The position numbers and the translations under genes are program-made. From the NCBI GenBank assembly GCA_030710605.1, contig CP092865.1, positions 35,006,244 through 35,070,243 on the forward strand: DNA of 64,000 nucleotides. The letters run 5' to 3'. Under the pieces are notes generated by a model, which saw only the letters and a program-made list of their open reading frames with translations, was not told the origin of the DNA and ran no database searches. The number at the start of each line of letters is the position of its first letter. Positions within the stretch are counted from its first letter, which is position 1. Below are positions 55,488 through 63,528 of this stretch, piece by piece. The DNA comes from Cordylochernes scorpioides (Eukaryota; Arthropoda; Arachnida; Pseudoscorpiones; Chernetidae).

Positions 55488-56333
55488 AATTGAACTAGCT
55501 AAGTGCGCATTTTGTAAGATAAGCTTACCTCTAACGATGTACAATCCGTTTAGGTTCCTTGCCACACATATCACTCTGTTGTCACTGAACACTTTTGCCT
55601 TGTGGTTACAATTCTTGATGTGCTTGCCTTTATCCTCTGTTTGCGACACAGAAAGCAAATTTCTTCTTGCTTGGGGCACAAAAGGCACGTCGTTCAAAGT
55701 GACATCTTGCGTTCCAGTATCCAGGTACATCTTCATGTGGGTATTTCCAACTCCCTCTACTTGTAGGTTGCCGCTCGCAGTCTGGATGGGCTCACACGTA
55801 GTAGGCTGGAAACTTGTAAACCATTGTCGGTACTTACAGACGTGATGTGTTGCGCCGCTGTCCAAGATTAATTCTTCTTCCGAAGAGATTGCATTGAAGA
55901 CCATGAGCATATTCTCCGACGGAGATATAAAAGAGTCTTTCTTCCTGCTGTAGCTTTTATCCGCCTTGTAGTCTCGGTTGATGGCGACCTGCAATCCTTG
56001 GCGATATGGCCGATTTTCGAACATCGGTAGCACTTGACTCTTTGTTTCCTGGAAGTCTTCCTAGTGTCGTCCTTTGAAAAATTGAGTGCTTCTCCGAGAC
56101 CTGAACTTGCTCCTTCTCGGGCAGATATTCTTTCATACTCTGTGAGTAGAGTATTTCTTACCTTGTTCGATGTGACATCAGAGTCCTCGACATTTCCGAA
56201 CGACATCACCAGGGAATTGAAGCTGTCAGGTAACCCTGATAGCATGCTGTATGCTATATCTTGATCGTCGACTTCCGCACCTGCCTCTTTTAAATGGTCA
56301 GTGCAAATTTTCAATCTATTCAAATAGTCTAAC
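55437..56333 (-). pseudogene. Copia 2 Gag C-terminus, zinc knuckle and protease
   Basis: From 56323: LKICTDHLKEAGAEVDDQDI, SMLSGLPDSFNSLVMSF (gag), RVKCYRCSKIGHIAKDCRSP (zinc knuckle, about 56020). After one shift: ELILDSGATHHVCKYRQWF (protease DSG, about 55870) and NDVPFVPQARRNLLSVSQ. It joins the gag N-terminus at 63163-63528 across the BEL insertion. Confidence 0.88.
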
Positions 56334-56820
56334 TGTTCAGGATTAGAGTTGTTCTCTTTTATTTTTATTTGTGTACATTGTGTAAATTCATTATTTGTTT
56401 TTGTATAAGATTATATTCGTTTTCTTTGTAGGCAAATATCAGACGCACCTAAATTGTAGGTATTATGTAAATTTACTGTCTCTTTTTTTTGTTTTGTGTA
56501 ATATATGAAATATATGTAAAATAGAATAGTATAAAAGGGAAAATTTTGGATGAATAAAGTGTGTGTGAAAGTGAGGCTGGTCTAGGGTGTCTTGCTTGAC
56601 CTCCTTTTCAAATTTAAATTGTCTCCACAGGGGAGACTGGTCCCTCGACATCTGAATCTAAGGGCGCCTAGGGCAGACAGCCTTTATTGCGCCAACAACT
56701 GGTCCCTCGACATCTGAATCTAAGGGCGCCTAGGGCAGATAGCCTTTATTGCGCCAACCACTGGTCCCTCGATATCTGAATCTAAGGGCGCCTAGGGCAG
56801 ACAGCCCTACTGCGCCAACA
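56334..56820 (+). repeat. BEL/Pao 5' LTR with three 62-bp repeats
   Basis: The LTR has a TATA box (TATAAAAG, about 56530) and a poly(A) signal (AATAAA, 56553-56558). Its last 185 bp are three tandem copies of a 62-bp unit (56636-56697, 56698-56759, 56760-56820), each starting CTGGTCCCTCGA and ending GCGCCAACA. Confidence 0.92.
56530..56537 (+). promoter_or_regulatory. TATA box in the BEL/Pao LTR
   Basis: TATAAAAG is conserved in both LTRs (second copy at about 62885-62895). The poly(A) signal follows about 20 bp on, so R begins between or just after them. Confidence 0.6.
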
Positions 56821-56822
56821 AG

Positions 56823-56840
56823 TGGTCCCTCGAGCCGGAT
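56823..56840 (+). promoter_or_regulatory. Primer binding site (tRNA-Tyr-like)
   Basis: TGGTCCCTCGAGCCGGAT begins two bases after the LTR, the usual spacing, and complements the 3' end of tRNA-Tyr including CCA. Confidence 0.65.
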
Positions 56841-56966
56841 CGAAGCGCTAAGGAGACGCAGTCAACGGATTTGGAGGGAACTCCTCGTATCAGGAGGAGT
56901 ATTAGAAAAAACCTCGGAATCGGGTCAGTAAGATATCCGGACGCAGAGCCTCAGACAACAATTCCC

Positions 56967-59900
56967 ATGGCCACAACAGAGCTGACTGGGGAGGGAATGG
57001 ACTCGACCAGGACAACGGATGATGTTCCAGACGGACCCAGCCTTGTGGAAACTTACGGGAAGTTGGAAAAGGATACTGGAGCAAAAGCTGGAACAGGTGG
57101 ACGGTCAGCTGCTTCGAGCCGATCAGATCGTTTAAGGAAACAAATGGAGCTTCAGATGGTGAAGCTGAGAATTGAAGAAGAGAAAGGGAAGCTTCGGGTC
57201 AACTCGCTGCAGCAGCGGGAATTGGAGCTGCGAAGGAGCCTGATAGAGGACGACTCCCAGTGCCTTAGCAGCGACGACGATGTCCCTGAAGACACCAAAG
57301 CCGAGAATGATGAGAAATACGTGGCGGAACGGGAGACAGGGCCGAAAGAAGAGCCATTGCTGTCGAAGACTTCCCCTGTATTTCGTCCCACAACGCAACC
57401 TGGTCGCTGCGCGAATGATCCAGAGCCTACTTCTGGTGCCAGCGAATTGGCAATGGCGTTGGTAGAGGCTTTCAAACAGCAGGGCCTAAACACGGAGAGA
57501 TTGATGGCGCGTCAGGGTTCGGGTGGACAGTTGCCTGTATTTTCCAAGAACCCCCTTGATTGGCCGGTGTTCATCCAGCACTATCGGCAATCAACCAAGG
57601 ACTGTGGGTATTCTCCAGCTCAGAACATGGCGAGGTTGGAGAGAGCGGTGCAGGGAGATGCAAGAAGGTCAGTGCGTGCTCTCATGATTGTCCCGGCCAA
57701 TTCTGAGGTGGTAATACAGGTTTTGGAACAGCGGTACGGACAGCCTGAGTACGTGGTACAGGCCTTGATTGAAATGGCCAAGAAGACCCCATCGCCGAAG
57801 GAGGGTCGATTGTCTGGGATCTTGGATTACGCCAACGCTATAAATAACCTGGTGACAACGGTGAAGGCGCTGGACACCCCGAGCCACCTGCAAAATCCTC
57901 AATTGAAGAAGGAGTTGGTAGACAAACTGCCAGATGCGCTGCGGTTGCAGTGGGGAGAATACGTGTTGATGCGAGGGGGTGCAGGAGAAGTCACATTGGA
58001 AGACCTTTCTGTGTGGATGAATATAAAAGCTGCAGCAGTCAGCATGGTGACCATCCCGGACTTCAAAAAAGGCCGTGAGAGGGATAATGGGCATCATAGC
58101 GTTATGACGGCGGTTGAGTCGGGTTCTCCCGGGAAATGCGCGGCGTGTAACGAGGCCGGTCATTGCATTCGGAATTGCCATCTATTTAGGTCAAGTGACA
58201 TCGATGACCGATGGAGGATGGTCAAGGAGAAGAAGTTGTGCATTTCCTGTTTGCGAAAGGGACATGGCATAAAAAACTGCCGCCAAAAGAAGGTGTGTGG
58301 TGCGGGTGGATGTGAGCGGAGCCATCATCCCCTTCTGCACAGTGAGAGGGAAAGACCAGCGGCAACCTCGTCGACCGACACCAGAACCCCAGCAGAAATA
58401 AGTGGACTGTTGAATGGAAGCTCGCGAACCGTCATACTGCGGGTTATTATGGTCCAACTGTATGGAAAGGATGGAAAGTCAAGGAAGGAGTGTGCGATTT
58501 TTGATGAATGCTCTTCCGTGACGATGATGGATGCGGATTTGGCGAATCAACTCGGACTACAGGGAAGGACTGACCCCCTGCGGCTCAAATGGACAGACGG
58601 GAGAATGCAGGAAGATTTCACTTCCCGACGTGTTTCTTGTGAGGTCGGCCCCGTAGAGGATAGGCATAGATTCAGCCTGAATAATGTACGAACTGTACAA
58701 AATCTCTGTCTTCCTGCTCAGCCATACAGATATAATGAGCTGTGCGAAAAGTGGAATCACCTAAACGCGGTAAAAATACCAGATATGGGTAATATAAAAC
58801 TGAGATTTCTAATCGGTCAACCCCACATTAGGCTGACGGCGGCGAGAGAAATCATAGAGGGAACTGGCGACTCTCCTATTTTGACAAAAACCCATCTAGG
58901 GTGGTTGGTACACGGTCCAACAGGCAATGTAAGCGGAAATGGGGAGATTTCTTTCTCTACCTTTGCGGTATCTGACGAGGACTTTCTTCATGATCTGGTG
59001 AAGGAAAATTTCAAAATTGAAAGCATTGGGGTTAGGGGGCTGTTACCTCGTTCAAAACAGGACCTTCTGGCGGAGCAGAAGATGAATGAACTCACTCGAC
59101 GAGTTGGAGACAGATGGGAAACTGGTTTGCTGTGGAAGGTGAACGAGGGGGATATGAGGCTACCTGATAACTACAGTGTTGCATTCAACTGTCTTATAGG
59201 AGTAGAAAGGCGACTAGAACGAGACCCCTTGCTGAAAGTGGAATATCAGGAGAAGATCGATCATTATTCGAGAATGGGCTTCGCTCGGATTCTAAGTAAG
59301 GAGGAGAGAAACGTGAAGACGGGAAGGCAGTGGCTCCAGCCGCATTTCCCCACCTTTCACCCCAACAAACTCGGAAAAATGAGAATAGTGTTTGATGCTT
59401 CAAGCAAATGTAATGGTCTCTCCCTAAACTCGTTCCTGCTGACTGGGCCTGACTTGTTGGTGTCGCTTCCCGGAGTGCTGCTTAAATTCAGAAGAAAAGC
59501 TATTGCTTTCACCGGGGACATAACTGAAATGTTCCATCAGGTGAAAATCAGACAGGATGATTGTGCTGCACCTGGTGGTTGGCTGCAGGTGGCTGCGCAG
59601 AACATGCGCACTTCCAGTCTCATCGTGGGTATTGACTTGGTGCCCATTCCTTCCATCCCCCAAGTGATGACCTTGGAGGCCGACATCACAACAGAGGAAT
59701 GCCGCAATCTCCTGTTCTCTACTCTTAATGGCTGGAAGGCTGACATCTTCCTCAATGACGGAGCCCCCAACTTGGGACAGAACTGGGTCCAGGGTGCCTA
59801 TGGCCAAGCGAAACTCACCCTCTTCGCCCTCAAACTGGCCACAGAGTTTCTAGTGAAGGGAGGCTGGTTCGTCACCAAAATCTTCCGCTCTAAGGAATAC

Positions 59901-60509
59901 AACTCCCTCAAGTTCGTGGCAGAGAAGATGTTCAAGCGGGTGATTGTGTCCAAGCCCAAGGCCTCCAGAAATGAGTCTGCAGAAATATTCTGGGTGTGCA
60001 AACACTATTTGGCCCCAGACAAGATTGACCCCAAGTTCCTGGACCCCCAGTATGTCTTCAGGGACGTGGTGCAGGAGGGATCCAAGAACAAAGTGAGCGA
60101 CCTGCTCAAGCCAGTCTTCAGGGAGAAGCCCAAGGCAGAGGGCTATGATGATCTCCTGGTCTACAAGAAGATGCCAATCTCTGAGTTCATCTACGGGGAC
60201 AACTACACTGAGATCCTCTACAATGCCTATGAGATCACTCTAGATGACGAGACCATTGCCAACCACCTCTCCACCACAGCAGAGATTGAGGAGAATCTTA
60301 AGGACATCAAAGTTCTGGGTCCGGCAGACATTAAGCGGCTGCTGAAGTGGAGGAGGGCACTGCGGGAGGAGCTGGTAAAGAAGGAGCCGGGCAGGGAGGC
60401 AGAGGAGAAGTTGGAAGAGGAAGATGTGGATGCCCTGCTGGCCAAAGAGCTGGAAGAGGTCACTGGAAACATGCGCAAGGAGAAGAAGCGCAAGCAGAAG
60501 AAGCTCTAG
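56967..60509 (+). CDS. Chimeric Gag-protease-RT-FTSJ3 protein, 1,180 codons
   Basis: The first ATG in frame is 56967 (MATTELTGEGMDSTR); the frame is open further back to about 56871. Domains: coiled coil (about residues 60-100), DUF1759-type Gag (FSKNPLDWPVFIQHY, about 190-340), two zinc knuckles (CAACNEAGHCIRNC and CISCLRKGHGIKNC, 390-445), aspartic protease FDECSSVTMMD (about 512; usual form DEGSS), then BEL RT up to FTGDITEMFHQVKIRQDD (865). At 59562 the sequence changes in frame to CAAPGGWLQVAAQNM, the SAM-binding motif of the FtsJ/SPB1 methyltransferase, and continues to 60509. The protein would be a Gag fusion with a methyltransferase domain. Confidence 0.9.
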   Translation: MATTELTGEGMDSTRTTDDVPDGPSLVETYGKLEKDTGAKAGTGGRSAASSRSDRLRKQMELQMVKLRIEEEKGKLRVNSLQQRELELRRSLIEDDSQCLSSDDDVPEDTKAENDEKYVAERETGPKEEPLLSKTSPVFRPTTQPGRCANDPEPTSGASELAMALVEAFKQQGLNTERLMARQGSGGQLPVFSKNPLDWPVFIQHYRQSTKDCGYSPAQNMARLERAVQGDARRSVRALMIVPANSEVVIQVLEQRYGQPEYVVQALIEMAKKTPSPKEGRLSGILDYANAINNLVTTVKALDTPSHLQNPQLKKELVDKLPDALRLQWGEYVLMRGGAGEVTLEDLSVWMNIKAAAVSMVTIPDFKKGRERDNGHHSVMTAVESGSPGKCAACNEAGHCIRNCHLFRSSDIDDRWRMVKEKKLCISCLRKGHGIKNCRQKKVCGAGGCERSHHPLLHSERERPAATSSTDTRTPAEISGLLNGSSRTVILRVIMVQLYGKDGKSRKECAIFDECSSVTMMDADLANQLGLQGRTDPLRLKWTDGRMQEDFTSRRVSCEVGPVEDRHRFSLNNVRTVQNLCLPAQPYRYNELCEKWNHLNAVKIPDMGNIKLRFLIGQPHIRLTAAREIIEGTGDSPILTKTHLGWLVHGPTGNVSGNGEISFSTFAVSDEDFLHDLVKENFKIESIGVRGLLPRSKQDLLAEQKMNELTRRVGDRWETGLLWKVNEGDMRLPDNYSVAFNCLIGVERRLERDPLLKVEYQEKIDHYSRMGFARILSKEERNVKTGRQWLQPHFPTFHPNKLGKMRIVFDASSKCNGLSLNSFLLTGPDLLVSLPGVLLKFRRKAIAFTGDITEMFHQVKIRQDDCAAPGGWLQVAAQNMRTSSLIVGIDLVPIPSIPQVMTLEADITTEECRNLLFSTLNGWKADIFLNDGAPNLGQNWVQGAYGQAKLTLFALKLATEFLVKGGWFVTKIFRSKEYNSLKFVAEKMFKRVIVSKPKASRNESAEIFWVCKHYLAPDKIDPKFLDPQYVFRDVVQEGSKNKVSDLLKPVFREKPKAEGYDDLLVYKKMPISEFIYGDNYTEILYNAYEITLDDETIANHLSTTAEIEENLKDIKVLGPADIKRLLKWRRALREELVKKEPGREAEEKLEEEDVDALLAKELEEVTGNMRKEKKRKQKKL

Positions 60510-61240
60510 AAGAGACAGACTCAGATGTTGAAGAGTGAGGCTGAGACCGACCTGCTGGCTGAAGACTATAACCTCTTCACTATCTCCAAGATCAAGACCA
60601 AGAAGGCCTTGGAGACGATTGGAGCTAACCAGGAGCCCCCAGAGCTGGAGCCAGAACCAGAGGAGGAAGAAGCTGAGCTGAACAAGAAGAAGCTCAAGTA
60701 CTACAGCCGGGATGAGCTGCCCGACTACCACACAGAGGGCGACGGAGCCCCCAAGTCTAGCTTAGAGAATGAGGACAGTGACGTGGTAGATGATGGAGAT
60801 GCTCTGGACTCAGCCAGTGGTGAGGAAGACAATGAGGAGATTTCAGAAGACGAAGGACTTCCAGATTCTGAAGAATGTTCAGCCGAGGAATCTGAAATGG
60901 ATGATGATGATGAAGAAGCAGATGATGATGAAGAGGCAGATGAGGAAGAGAACCCCCTGGTGATGAAGTTTAAGCAGAGCATGGACTCCAGGTGCAAGGA
61001 GTACTTTGACCAGCCCATGTTCAGGGAAGCTGACGAGGACTTCACTGAGTTGGAGATTGACCTGATGAACAAGGCTCTTCAGCAGAATGTCCAAGGTAAA
61101 GACAAGACCAAAAAGGAACGGAAGAAATCCACTGTTGAAGCTCCCAAGAAAAAAGGGAAAGCCGGAAAAATAAACTTGAAGAGGATGCAAGAGAAAGCTG
61201 CCAAGAGGACAGAGGCCAAATTGGACCTCAAAGCTGAAAA
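59562..61240 (+). pseudogene. FTSJ3: Captured FTSJ3/SPB1 rRNA methyltransferase cDNA
   Basis: Matches the 2'-O-ribose methyltransferase that modifies pre-rRNA in the nucleolus. Seen: SAM motif CAAPGGWLQ, IVGIDLVPIPSIP, catalytic LNDGAPNLG (D), GGWFVTKIFRS (K), SKPKASRNESAEIF (E), then VFRDVV, the DUF3381 region to KKRKQKKL, TAG at 60507-60509, and in the same frame 60525-61240 the acidic linker (DDDEEADDDEEADEEE) and part of the C-terminal region (MDSRCKEYFDQPMFREADED). Missing: about 50 N-terminal residues with the first Lys of the K-D-K-E tetrad, and the Spb1_C tail. No introns, one stop, no frameshift in 1.68 kb. GC-rich third positions differ from the BEL part. Capture is most likely by template switching onto host mRNA. 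Confidence 0.9.
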
Positions 61241-61450
61241 TGGATTTCGTCCCGAAATCGGGGGGAAATATGTTCAGGATTGGAGTTGTTCTCTTTTATT
61301 TTTATTTGTGTACATTGTGTAAATTCATTATTTGTTTTTGTATAAGATTATATTCGTTTTCTTTGTAGGCAAATATCAGACGCACCTAAATTGTAGGTAT
61401 TATGTAAATTTACTGTCTCTTTTTTTGTTTTGTGTAATATATGAAATATA

Positions 61451-62868
61451 CACTGCGTGACATTGAAAATGGAACACCAAGAAATAGTGGCCAGAAAATT
61501 ATGCAAATTTCAGGGTAGACGCGCCTAACCGAGTTATGCAAATGATGTAAAATGCGCAGCTCTTCTGCGCACAAGGAGTAAGATATAAGGGAAGGAATTT
61601 GCAGAAAGGACAGTATTCGTGTCGTTATTTATTCAAGGAAAATCATTGTAGAAATTTTGTTCTTGTGTCAAAAGACACGTGTAATAACAGAGAATGCCAG
61701 GTCATCGTAAACGAAGGCAGTTCAAGCAGACAGACGCTTTTACGAGGGGCATGGTGATCGGACTGAAAAGGGCAGGTTGGTCCATACGTCAAATCGCAGC
61801 TGATACACACCTTGGTGCGTCCACGGTGCACCGACTGTGGAGAAGATGGTTGGAGCAAGGAAATGTGGCAATTTATAGGAATGTCGGTGCAACCAGAGTG
61901 ACGTCAGCACGTGTGGATCGGCGTATCCTTCGATAAGCAGTGGCGGCCCTAAAAGCCACTTGTACCGCCATCCTGCAACACGTGCAAGACACCCTAGATC
62001 ATTCCATCCCGACCAGAACCATTTCCCGTCGATTGGTTGCTAATGGCTTGCACTCATGCCGTCCGCTAAGAAGACTGCCATTGACCCCACCGAATAGGCG
62101 CCAACGTTTGGAATGGTGCTGGGCTAGATCGACGTGGATGACGGAATGGCACAGGGTCGTGTTCTCAGATGAGTCGCGTTTCTGCTTGTCCAGTGATAGT
62201 CGCCGTGTACGCGTGTGGCGTCGACGTGGAGAAAGATCCAATCCGGCAGCAATTGTGGAACGCCCCACAGTGCGACAACGTGGAATCATGGTTTGGGGCG
62301 CAATCGCGTATGATTCCAGGTCACCTTTACTTCGTATTCAGGGCACTATGACGGCCCAACGATACGTTGATGATGTGCTGTGACCGGTGACACTCCCTTA
62401 CCTTCAGGGGGTACCCAATGCCCTTTATCAGTAGGATAACGCCCGACCGCACACTGCTCGCATTAGCCAACAAGCTCTGCAAGATGTACAGTGCTTCCCT
62501 GGCCACCGTACTCTCCTGATCTCTCACCAATCGAGCACGTCTGGGACATCATTGGACGCCGTTTGCATGCCTTGCCACAGCCGCGTTCAGAAGACGAACT
62601 GTGGCAAATGGTTGAGAGGGAATGGAGAGCCATCCCTCAGGACCCCATCCGTACTCTGATTGACTATCTACCTAGACGTGTTGCTGCGTGCATCGCCGAC
62701 CGCGGTGGTCCTACTTGCTACTAAGCCGACGCCGTTCTCGCTCTGTATTATGACTATCATTTTGAAATAAAGATCACTTATTGTTCGTCCCTGTCTCTCT
62801 CTGTCTGCCGAGTTTCATCACTTTCTGGCCACTATTTCTTGGTGTTCCATTTTCAATGTCACGCAGTG
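61451..62868 (+). mobile_element. Tc1-like DNA transposon
   Basis: Perfect 47-bp inverted ends starting CACTGCGTGACATTGAAAAT, flanked by TA (61449-61450, 62869-62870). Contains one transposase gene, 61694-62724. Confidence 0.96.
61694..62724 (+). pseudogene. Tc1-like transposase (DD34E)
   Basis: MPGHRKRRQFKQTDAFTRGM starts at ATG 61694. It has two helix-turn-helix regions (GWSIRQIAADTHLGASTVHR; TRTISRRLVANGLHSC), an arginine-rich linker, then the triad: VFSDESRF (D, about 62165), DNARPHTAR (D, about 62440) and PYSPDLSPIEHVWD (E, about 62505). Stops at 61934-61936 (TAA), 62381-62383 (TGA) and 62435 (TAG), plus a shift near 62490. Length (about 343 codons) is normal. It cuts and pastes the element at TA. 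Confidence 0.93.
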
Positions 62869-63162
62869 TATGTAAAATAGATTAGTATAAAAGGGAAAAT
62901 TTTGGATGAATAAAGTGTGTGTGAAAGTGAGGCTGGTCTAGGGTGTCTTGCTTGACCTCCTTTTCAAATTTAAATTGTCTCCACAGGGGAGACTGGTCCC
63001 TCGACATCTGAATCTAAGGGCGCCTAGGGCAGATAGCCTTTATTGCGCCAACAACTGGTCCCTCGATATCAGAATCTAAGGGCGCCTAGGGCAGACAGCG
63101 TTTATTGCGGCAACAACTGGTCCCTCGATATCTGAATCTAAGGGCGCCTAGGGCAGACAGCC

Positions 63163-63528
63163 CTACTGCGCCAACACTAACATTGACTCACCAGTTTGAC
63201 GCTTGATGTTCACACACTGCTTCTTTAACTGTAGTATCCTCGAACGAGATTTTGGCTCAAAAACCTGTTCCAGATTTTTCCACGCATCCTGTGGCGATGT
63301 ACAGTCGATGATGTGGATTTGGTGTTCTGTATTTATCGACAACGCGATAACAGCCATAACTCTATCCTTTTGAGCTTTTAGTTGAGCATCTTGGGTATCT
63401 TCATCTTTAATCATCTCATCCCACAAGCCCTTCTCAATTAGAAGCATCTTGATGTTGTACTTCCATGAGCGGTAATTTTGGCCGTTAAATTTTTCAACCG
63501 CCGTCGTTGTTGCACTAATGGCCGCCAT
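63163..63528 (-). pseudogene. Copia 2 Gag N-terminus
   Basis: ATG 63528 (MAAISATTTAVEKFNGQNYR), then KMLLIEKGLWDEMIKDEDTQ, VMAVIALSINTEHQIHIIDC, AWKNLEQVFEPKSRSRILQL: the UBN2/DUF4219 Gag of copia. It ends in the BEL LTR at 63176; the next residues are at 56333 downward. Confidence 0.9.

Follow-up and report, generated by a model that had tools for sequence, protein, structure and literature searches.

The stretch of Cordylochernes scorpioides DNA analyzed here (64,000 nucleotides of contig CP092865.1, assembly GCA_030710605.1; hereafter the window) carries at 56334-63176 a single long terminal repeat (LTR) element with a target duplication, CTAAC, at either end. Between its LTRs lie the gag-protease region and the start of the reverse transcriptase (RT) of a BEL/Pao retrotransposon, followed in the same frame by coding sequence of the host gene FTSJ3. 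The first-pass annotation had read this arrangement as the capture of a host gene by a BEL/Pao LTR element, and this reading is now supported by the domains, the joins, a spliced donor and a family of related copies. We propose, with a probability of about 0.9, that a BEL/Pao element took up spliced FTSJ3 messenger RNA (mRNA) when its reverse transcription switched templates, and that the resulting chimera then multiplied as a non-autonomous element. Both LTRs, the polypurine tract and the CTAAC duplications were found as annotated, and the features of the locus are collected in the table. The 487-bp LTR of the window and the lengths of 20 elements of the family (4761-6843 bp, the longest with a Tc1-like insert) agree with the ranges for BEL/Pao elements (LTRs of 0.2-1.2 kb, elements of 4.2-10 kb) given in the available part of PMC3118150.

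Table. Features of the BEL/Pao-FTSJ3 chimera and its insert, with positions numbered along the whole window (ORF, open reading frame; cDNA, complementary DNA).
Feature	Position	Strand	Basis or remark
Target site duplication CTAAC, 5 bp, left	56329..56333	.	flank comparison
5' LTR, TG...CA, 487 bp	56334..56820	+	LTR alignment
Tandem repeat, 62-bp unit x 3.2	56636..56833	+	unit covers LTR end and primer-site-like motif
Putative primer-binding site, begins TGG, 2 nt past LTR	56823..56840	+	inferred from sequence
ORF, gag-protease-RT start and FTSJ3, 1212 residues	56871..60509	+	closed by in-frame stop
DUF1759	57540..57962	+	profile match, E 1.4e-11
FtsJ methyltransferase domain	59544..60008	+	profile match, positions 23-181 of 181, start missing
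Captured FTSJ3 cDNA	59562..61218	+	10 introns absent up to 61155; first ~51 codons and Spb1_C region missing
5' switch point TGTGCTGC, common to parental-type RT and FTSJ3 mRNA	59562..59569	+	8-nt shared motif
DUF3381, Spb1/FTSJ3 middle domain	60123..60503	+	profile match
Remainder of FTSJ3 part and BEL pol C-terminal end, into 3' LTR	60525..61322	+	same frame
Internal jump 1, A-rich tract	61155..61157	+	exon at C7:33536037 joined to one near C7:33541832; exact base uncertain
Internal jump 2 at AGAGGATG	61180..61187	+	to host exon C7:33543950; Spb1_C exons removed
3' switch point GGCCA, back into end of BEL pol	61214..61218	+	5 nt shared
Polypurine tract GGGGGGAAATA, adjoins 3' LTR, common to L045	61260..61270	+	sequence
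3' LTR, split by Tc1-like element	61271..63176	+	LTR alignment
Tc1-like DNA transposon in 3' LTR	61451..62868	+	72-nt inverted ends, TA duplication
Target site duplication CTAAC, 5 bp, right	63177..63181	.	flank comparison

The frame of the fusion ORF continues to 61322, with a sole in-frame stop at 60507-60509. Its DUF1759 match marks what we take to be the gag region of BEL/Pao elements. For residues 520-895, 118 of the 120 protein matches listed (120 of 155) carry PF05380, PF03564 or PF00078, and with DUF1759 these carriers indicate that the gag-protease-RT portion is related to BEL/Pao proteins. Neither the Pao peptidase (PF05380) nor an integrase was matched in the chimera by profile search; both were found in L045, a copy of parental type on contig C24. 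By its gene content the chimera is a defective derivative of a BEL/Pao element and no autonomous member. Phage records gave no match to the element, as expected.

Downstream of the RT start, the host-derived cargo matched chains of solved FTSJ3 (E 1.2e-86) and SPB1. It had been described as about 1.68 kb of intronless FTSJ3 in frame with the element; it is indeed intronless and in frame, but measures about 1.65 kb and contains two internal jumps and one in-frame stop. What was captured is FTSJ3 coding sequence as claimed, although as a fragment truncated at both ends and shortened inside rather than as the whole gene. The cargo begins at CAAPGGW, about 51 residues short at the N-terminus by comparison to the Argiope protein (P0004). 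The FtsJ fold is incomplete, as its profile was matched from position 23 of 181 and the host residues before CAAPGGW are absent, and the first catalytic lysine of this fold is presumably placed in the missing N-terminal part. DUF3381 is present, whereas Spb1_C gave no match in the cargo at E 0.001, the Spb1_C exons being skipped in the cDNA. Not one of the 19 copies inspected is open over its whole length. Because the N-terminal residues are missing, the FtsJ profile starts late and no copy is open throughout, the cargo is unlikely to act as an active methyltransferase; a Gag-fused FTSJ3 fragment is a possible product. A structure model of 59412-60206 (265 residues), for which the window piece was aligned with 38 of the 120 listed FTSJ3 proteins, had a mean pLDDT (predicted local distance difference test score) of 69.6 and predicted an ordered methyltransferase core with residues 1-52 disordered. 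The predicted disorder of this RT-derived start says little, since the alignment held no BEL sequences.

A multi-exon FTSJ3, for which the genome was searched, was found outside the window on contig C7 at 33526260 to 33544894, extending from the start to the C-terminal region in alignment to the Argiope protein. All 10 introns between C7:33527951 and 33536051 are absent from the chimera with exact GT-AG borders (8 checked by script and 2 by inspection): the donor was spliced FTSJ3 mRNA. A second, inverted FTSJ3 copy lies at C7:33.46 Mb (the first at 33.53 Mb) and is 99.1% identical over 5.96 kb. In the acidic tract a frame disruption was detected in the first copy and none in the second, of which 6.3 kb were read. 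Inverted duplicates ~60 to 120 kb apart are seen not just for host FTSJ3 but also for two chimera loci (L032/L033 and L035/L037); they are either a real duplication or an assembly effect.

The joins between element and host sequence fall on short motifs that the two have in common. At the 5' join L045 reads GATGATTGTGCTGCCCAG, the host GACCTCTGTGCTGCACCTGG and the chimera GATGATTGTGCTGCACCTGG. At the 3' join the host reads ACAGAGGCCATATTGGA and L045 AGATTGGCCAAATTGGACC, and the chimera crosses over in GGCCA. The annotated positions of both switches are corrected in this way: the 5' switch falls within 59562-59569, and the 3' switch lies at 61214-61218 and not at about 61240. Shared motifs, given as plain lengths of 8, 8 and 5 nt, were found at three of the four switch points, the fourth being in the A-rich tract. 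A processed FTSJ3 copy made by a long interspersed nuclear element (LINE) and inserted in a BEL element would also be intronless. The insert, however, ends within coding exons and has no poly(A) tract, it stands in place of pol from RT onward, up to roughly the last 20 residues, instead of interrupting it, and both joins fall on shared motifs. A LINE-made retrocopy was rejected as contradicted by the joins, and we give it hardly any credence.

The position of the 5' join inside a host exon, with everything downstream spliced, is also obtainable by a deletion in DNA. By this route a deletion would have brought a damaged BEL provirus into position upstream of an FTSJ3 exon, the read-through transcript would have been spliced and packaged, and reverse transcriptase would have made only the 3' join; capture of oncogenes by retroviruses is modelled in this deletion-first, read-through manner. 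We consider such an origin unlikely. At the 5' join the two sequences have 8 nt in common, and the same cDNA includes two further jumps, which fits repeated switching. Moreover, no match to LTR, gag-protease-RT or L045 pol pieces was obtained (E 1e-3) in the parts of the host locus examined, although such an allele could have been lost.

The parental side of the joins was read from L045, the one copy from which the parental-type features come. Its identity to the window across 59245-59569 is 98.2%, and past the join L045 matches RVT_1, Peptidase_A17, Integrase_H2C2, rve and DUF5641 (Integrase_H2C2 and rve below Pfam cut-offs). Set against this copy, the loss from the chimera of the remainder of RT, the Pao peptidase/RNase H region and the integrase was confirmed. 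At fifteen further places the match, at 97-99%, is confined to the initial 170-181 bases of the query used to search for the junction, a pattern expected of parental-type copies.

That query was 1.9 kb in length, spanned the junction and was run against the genome of 2.62 Gb (24 contigs), where it gave 59 matches. Of 154 candidate places 40 were scored, and copy numbers are lower bounds for this reason. At least 21 chimera loci were detected, counting the window (20 others retrieved), such that the chimera described at first as one element is real but belongs to a multi-copy family. LTR, gag-protease, FTSJ3 and LTR pieces follow in this order in 18 of the 20 loci outside the window. Inner deletions or rearrangements were found in several loci, among them L022, L032, L033, L037 and L038; the junction is gone from L039, and L040 extends beyond the retrieved range, which cuts it short. 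Both ends were present in 20 loci, window included, and identical 5-bp flanks were found in all 20; the ends are TG and CA in 19 of these, with L039 ending in AAAA and without the final CA. Ends were located by shifting the start by as many as 8 bases and the end by as many as 4, in both directions, in search of TG, CA and equal flanks.

By flank and duplication, 15 integration sites are distinct (L040 not counted). The chimera itself was mobilised, with 15 distinct integrations, as the first-pass annotation had proposed in stating that it had been reverse-transcribed and integrated as such. Five loci are repeats of others: L038 of L022, L028 and L030 of L026, L033 of L032, and L037 of L035. 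Left flanks of paired loci are 98.2-99.3% identical and right flanks 96.3-98.8%, but only 84.5% for L022/L038. These five repeat loci are segmental duplicates or assembly duplicates.

A search for other copies of the junction showed that it recurs on many contigs. Either of two overlapping 14-base motifs identified the FTSJ3 side of the 5' join without mismatch in 19 of 21 loci. On the RT side, 12 bases are intact or differ by a single base in 18 of the 21, L030 having two mismatches; in L039 and L040 the 5' join is absent from the stretch examined. The internal jumps and the 3' join are alike, except for lengths of A- and G-runs and single bases, in 16 of the 21 loci, the other 5 being without the exact motif used to find them. 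Since the same 5' join, internal jumps and 3' join are found across loci, a single capture event founded the family. Nothing direct speaks for the chimera as an assembly product, although some of the assembly may be present twice, to judge from the duplicate loci. The join, however, is found in 19 loci that between them have 14 different flanks and target duplications, and the likelihood of an assembly chimera is in our judgment negligible. Chance or assembly error was excluded by the 20 further loci.

Divergence of paired LTRs is 0.3-2.7%, which over 18 loci, segmental duplicates among them, adds up to 80 of 5383 positions; the two LTRs of the window, measured in two pieces, differ at 9 of 475. 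By comparison to host cDNA the 19 copies are 1.8-2.4% different, with 10 fixed differences, while copies at different sites differ mutually by ~1.7-3.1%. The tree of copies has little depth, and where its inner branches are well supported they mostly unite duplicates of one site. With so small a distance from the host and 10 differences fixed, amplification must have come soon after capture.

Selection on the captured part, a comparison that had been suggested for this element, was examined by counting changes in 14 independent insertions for FTSJ3 and in three pieces (15 rows) for gag-protease. The counts left out the five segmental duplicates and L040, and L039 was used for gag-protease only. 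Private changes in FTSJ3 were 47 silent and 116 replacing (47/163 silent), with 6 stops, as without selection, and shared changes were 9 silent and 15 replacing (9/24 silent; p 0.13-0.23). No purifying selection on the FTSJ3 part was detectable in the private and shared changes of the 14 insertions, and this part seems to drift as if neutral. For gag-protease, private changes were likewise neutral (75 silent, 171 replacing, 7 stop). Shared changes in gag-protease had a silent excess (25 silent, 27 replacing; 25/52; p 0.0008-0.003), distributed unevenly by piece (9/14, 5/15 and 11/23). This excess may be due to a need for Gag in the moving lineage or to recombination with intact relatives.

These counts bear on whether the fusion was kept because it was useful, with Gag-protease-FTSJ3 being packaged or sent to pre-ribosomes and aiding the RNA or particle, or with small RNAs of the copies tuning host FTSJ3. 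The single frame across both joins in the window copy (bar one stop), the 15 integrations and the skew of shared gag-protease changes to silent would be in keeping with usefulness. So would the recruitment of FTSJ3 by HIV-1 as reported by Ringeard 2019 (cited in the available part of PMC10616867) and, by analogy, the silencing RNAs made by LTR-linked retrocopies of the host gene Masc in Plutella xylostella (available text of PMC9674220). By contrast, the FTSJ3 part has neutral private changes with stops and no significant skew of shared ones, the gag-protease skew is uneven, the first residues and the start of the FtsJ profile are missing, and no copy is open end to end. Usefulness of the fusion is therefore improbable on these grounds; if it were true that the cargo mattered, the burst of the chimera soon after capture would be no accident. 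Most likely the FTSJ3 cargo rode along and was not needed.

For capture by template switching, the events may be ordered as follows. FTSJ3 mRNA would have been packaged with element RNA in a virus-like particle. Minus-strand synthesis would have departed from the element RNA at GGCCA, close to where pol ends, continued along the FTSJ3 mRNA with two skips (first at AGAGGATG, then in the A-rich tract), and come back to the element RNA at TGTGCTGC inside RT. The product has complete LTRs, the polypurine tract, gag-protease and the RT start, the rest of pol being replaced, and it has one reading frame that ends in the last residues of pol. Because the chimera is without polymerase and integrase, its enzymes would be supplied in trans by intact relatives; a Gag-protease with the FTSJ3 fragment attached is what it could produce by itself. 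Several points weigh against this account. The supply of enzymes in trans is a step that we infer, the 5' join taken alone could be a DNA-level product, and internal jump 1 is not clean, leaving ~2 bases unexplained. In addition, the LTR pieces of L045 share only 77-86% identity with those of the window, so L045 is a relative of the direct parent rather than the parent itself, and its frame is broken, the copy having been read from 59245 onward only.

In the Gag-Onc fusions of acutely transforming retroviruses, Gag is kept, pol is replaced by spliced host coding sequence, and the defective product spreads in trans. The layout here is similar but differs in that there is no infection or oncogene, the carrier being a retrotransposon with a fragment of a ribosomal RNA methyltransferase. 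LTR-mediated retroposition in metazoans is reportedly the subject of Tan et al. 2016, as its title has it. Template switching at microsimilarities from LTR RNA to packaged cellular mRNA is a described mechanism (PMC5408686, in the part available), for which that source cites what is probably Tan et al. 2016. The present case is like LTR-mediated retroposition, so far as that source describes it, in that a chimeric LTR cDNA formed by a template switch at microsimilarities to spliced cellular mRNA was integrated with its LTRs; beyond it, there are here both joins, two internal jumps, the parental-type element, the donor gene and a family with 15 sites.

Crocodilian endogenous retroviruses have captured KIT-ligand (CrocERV29) and nectin3 (CrocERV31), and in the accessible portion of PMC4299795 they resemble the present family in that a host mRNA was captured by an animal LTR element with several insertions (six of nectin3 in alligator). 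Those elements are retroviruses with the cargo between pol and env or replacing env and with purifying selection reported, whereas here the element is BEL/Pao, the cargo replaces most of pol behind gag-protease, and the FTSJ3 part looks neutral. Maize Bs1, as outlined in what was available of PMC13317346, is also an LTR element bearing truncated host-gene fragments, but it is a plant element with three different genes, and here one gene was taken up in one event. Pxyfem of Plutella xylostella is likewise a multicopy spliced host cDNA joined to an LTR element at a short shared motif; according to the same portion of PMC9674220 as above it forms tandem clusters on W and makes silencing RNAs, whereas here the elements are dispersed and have LTRs. 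The mechanism and comparable captures are already published. No report of gene capture by BEL/Pao or of FTSJ3 was found in the open-licence literature searched. As judged from the genome sequence, the chimera is a multi-copy, young capture of a host gene by a BEL/Pao element, and its origin is well supported.

The LTRs of the family carry a tandem repeat at their end, in which the 62-bp unit includes the LTR terminus and the primer-site-like TGGTCCCTCGA (window and LTRs of L021-L038). Unit number, counted by LTR-end matches, varies between 1 and 5 and is unequal in paired LTRs of a copy (for example, 1 and 3 in L024, 5 and 4 in L028). Such differences between paired LTRs suggest growth of the repeat during strand transfer at the primer site. 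The Tc1-like element in the 3' LTR of the window has its transposase in pieces (matches to HTH_Tnp_Tc3_2 and DDE_3). The chimera itself lies within a minus-strand element of copia type, whose sequence flanks it up to 56328 and again from 63182, with Pfam matches on either side.

Among proteins, the FTSJ3 part is matched best, at 95% identity, by P0001 of Cordylochernes scorpioides. In the database P0001 is named FTSJ3 (also acetylcholinesterase); its residues 1-538 match the chimera copy L037 at 100%, and it continues into a PF00135 part named acetylcholinesterase. P0001 is thus a gene model that joins a chimera copy to a neighbouring esterase gene, and because of this fusion orthology sets may hold a transposon where FTSJ3 belongs. 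One genome here contains the donor of the cargo, the chimera with its 15 daughter integrations and an element closely related to the parental one. Since the chimera is so little removed from its donor, and its copies from one another, the capture, the switch points and the spread are traceable base by base in an animal BEL/Pao family.

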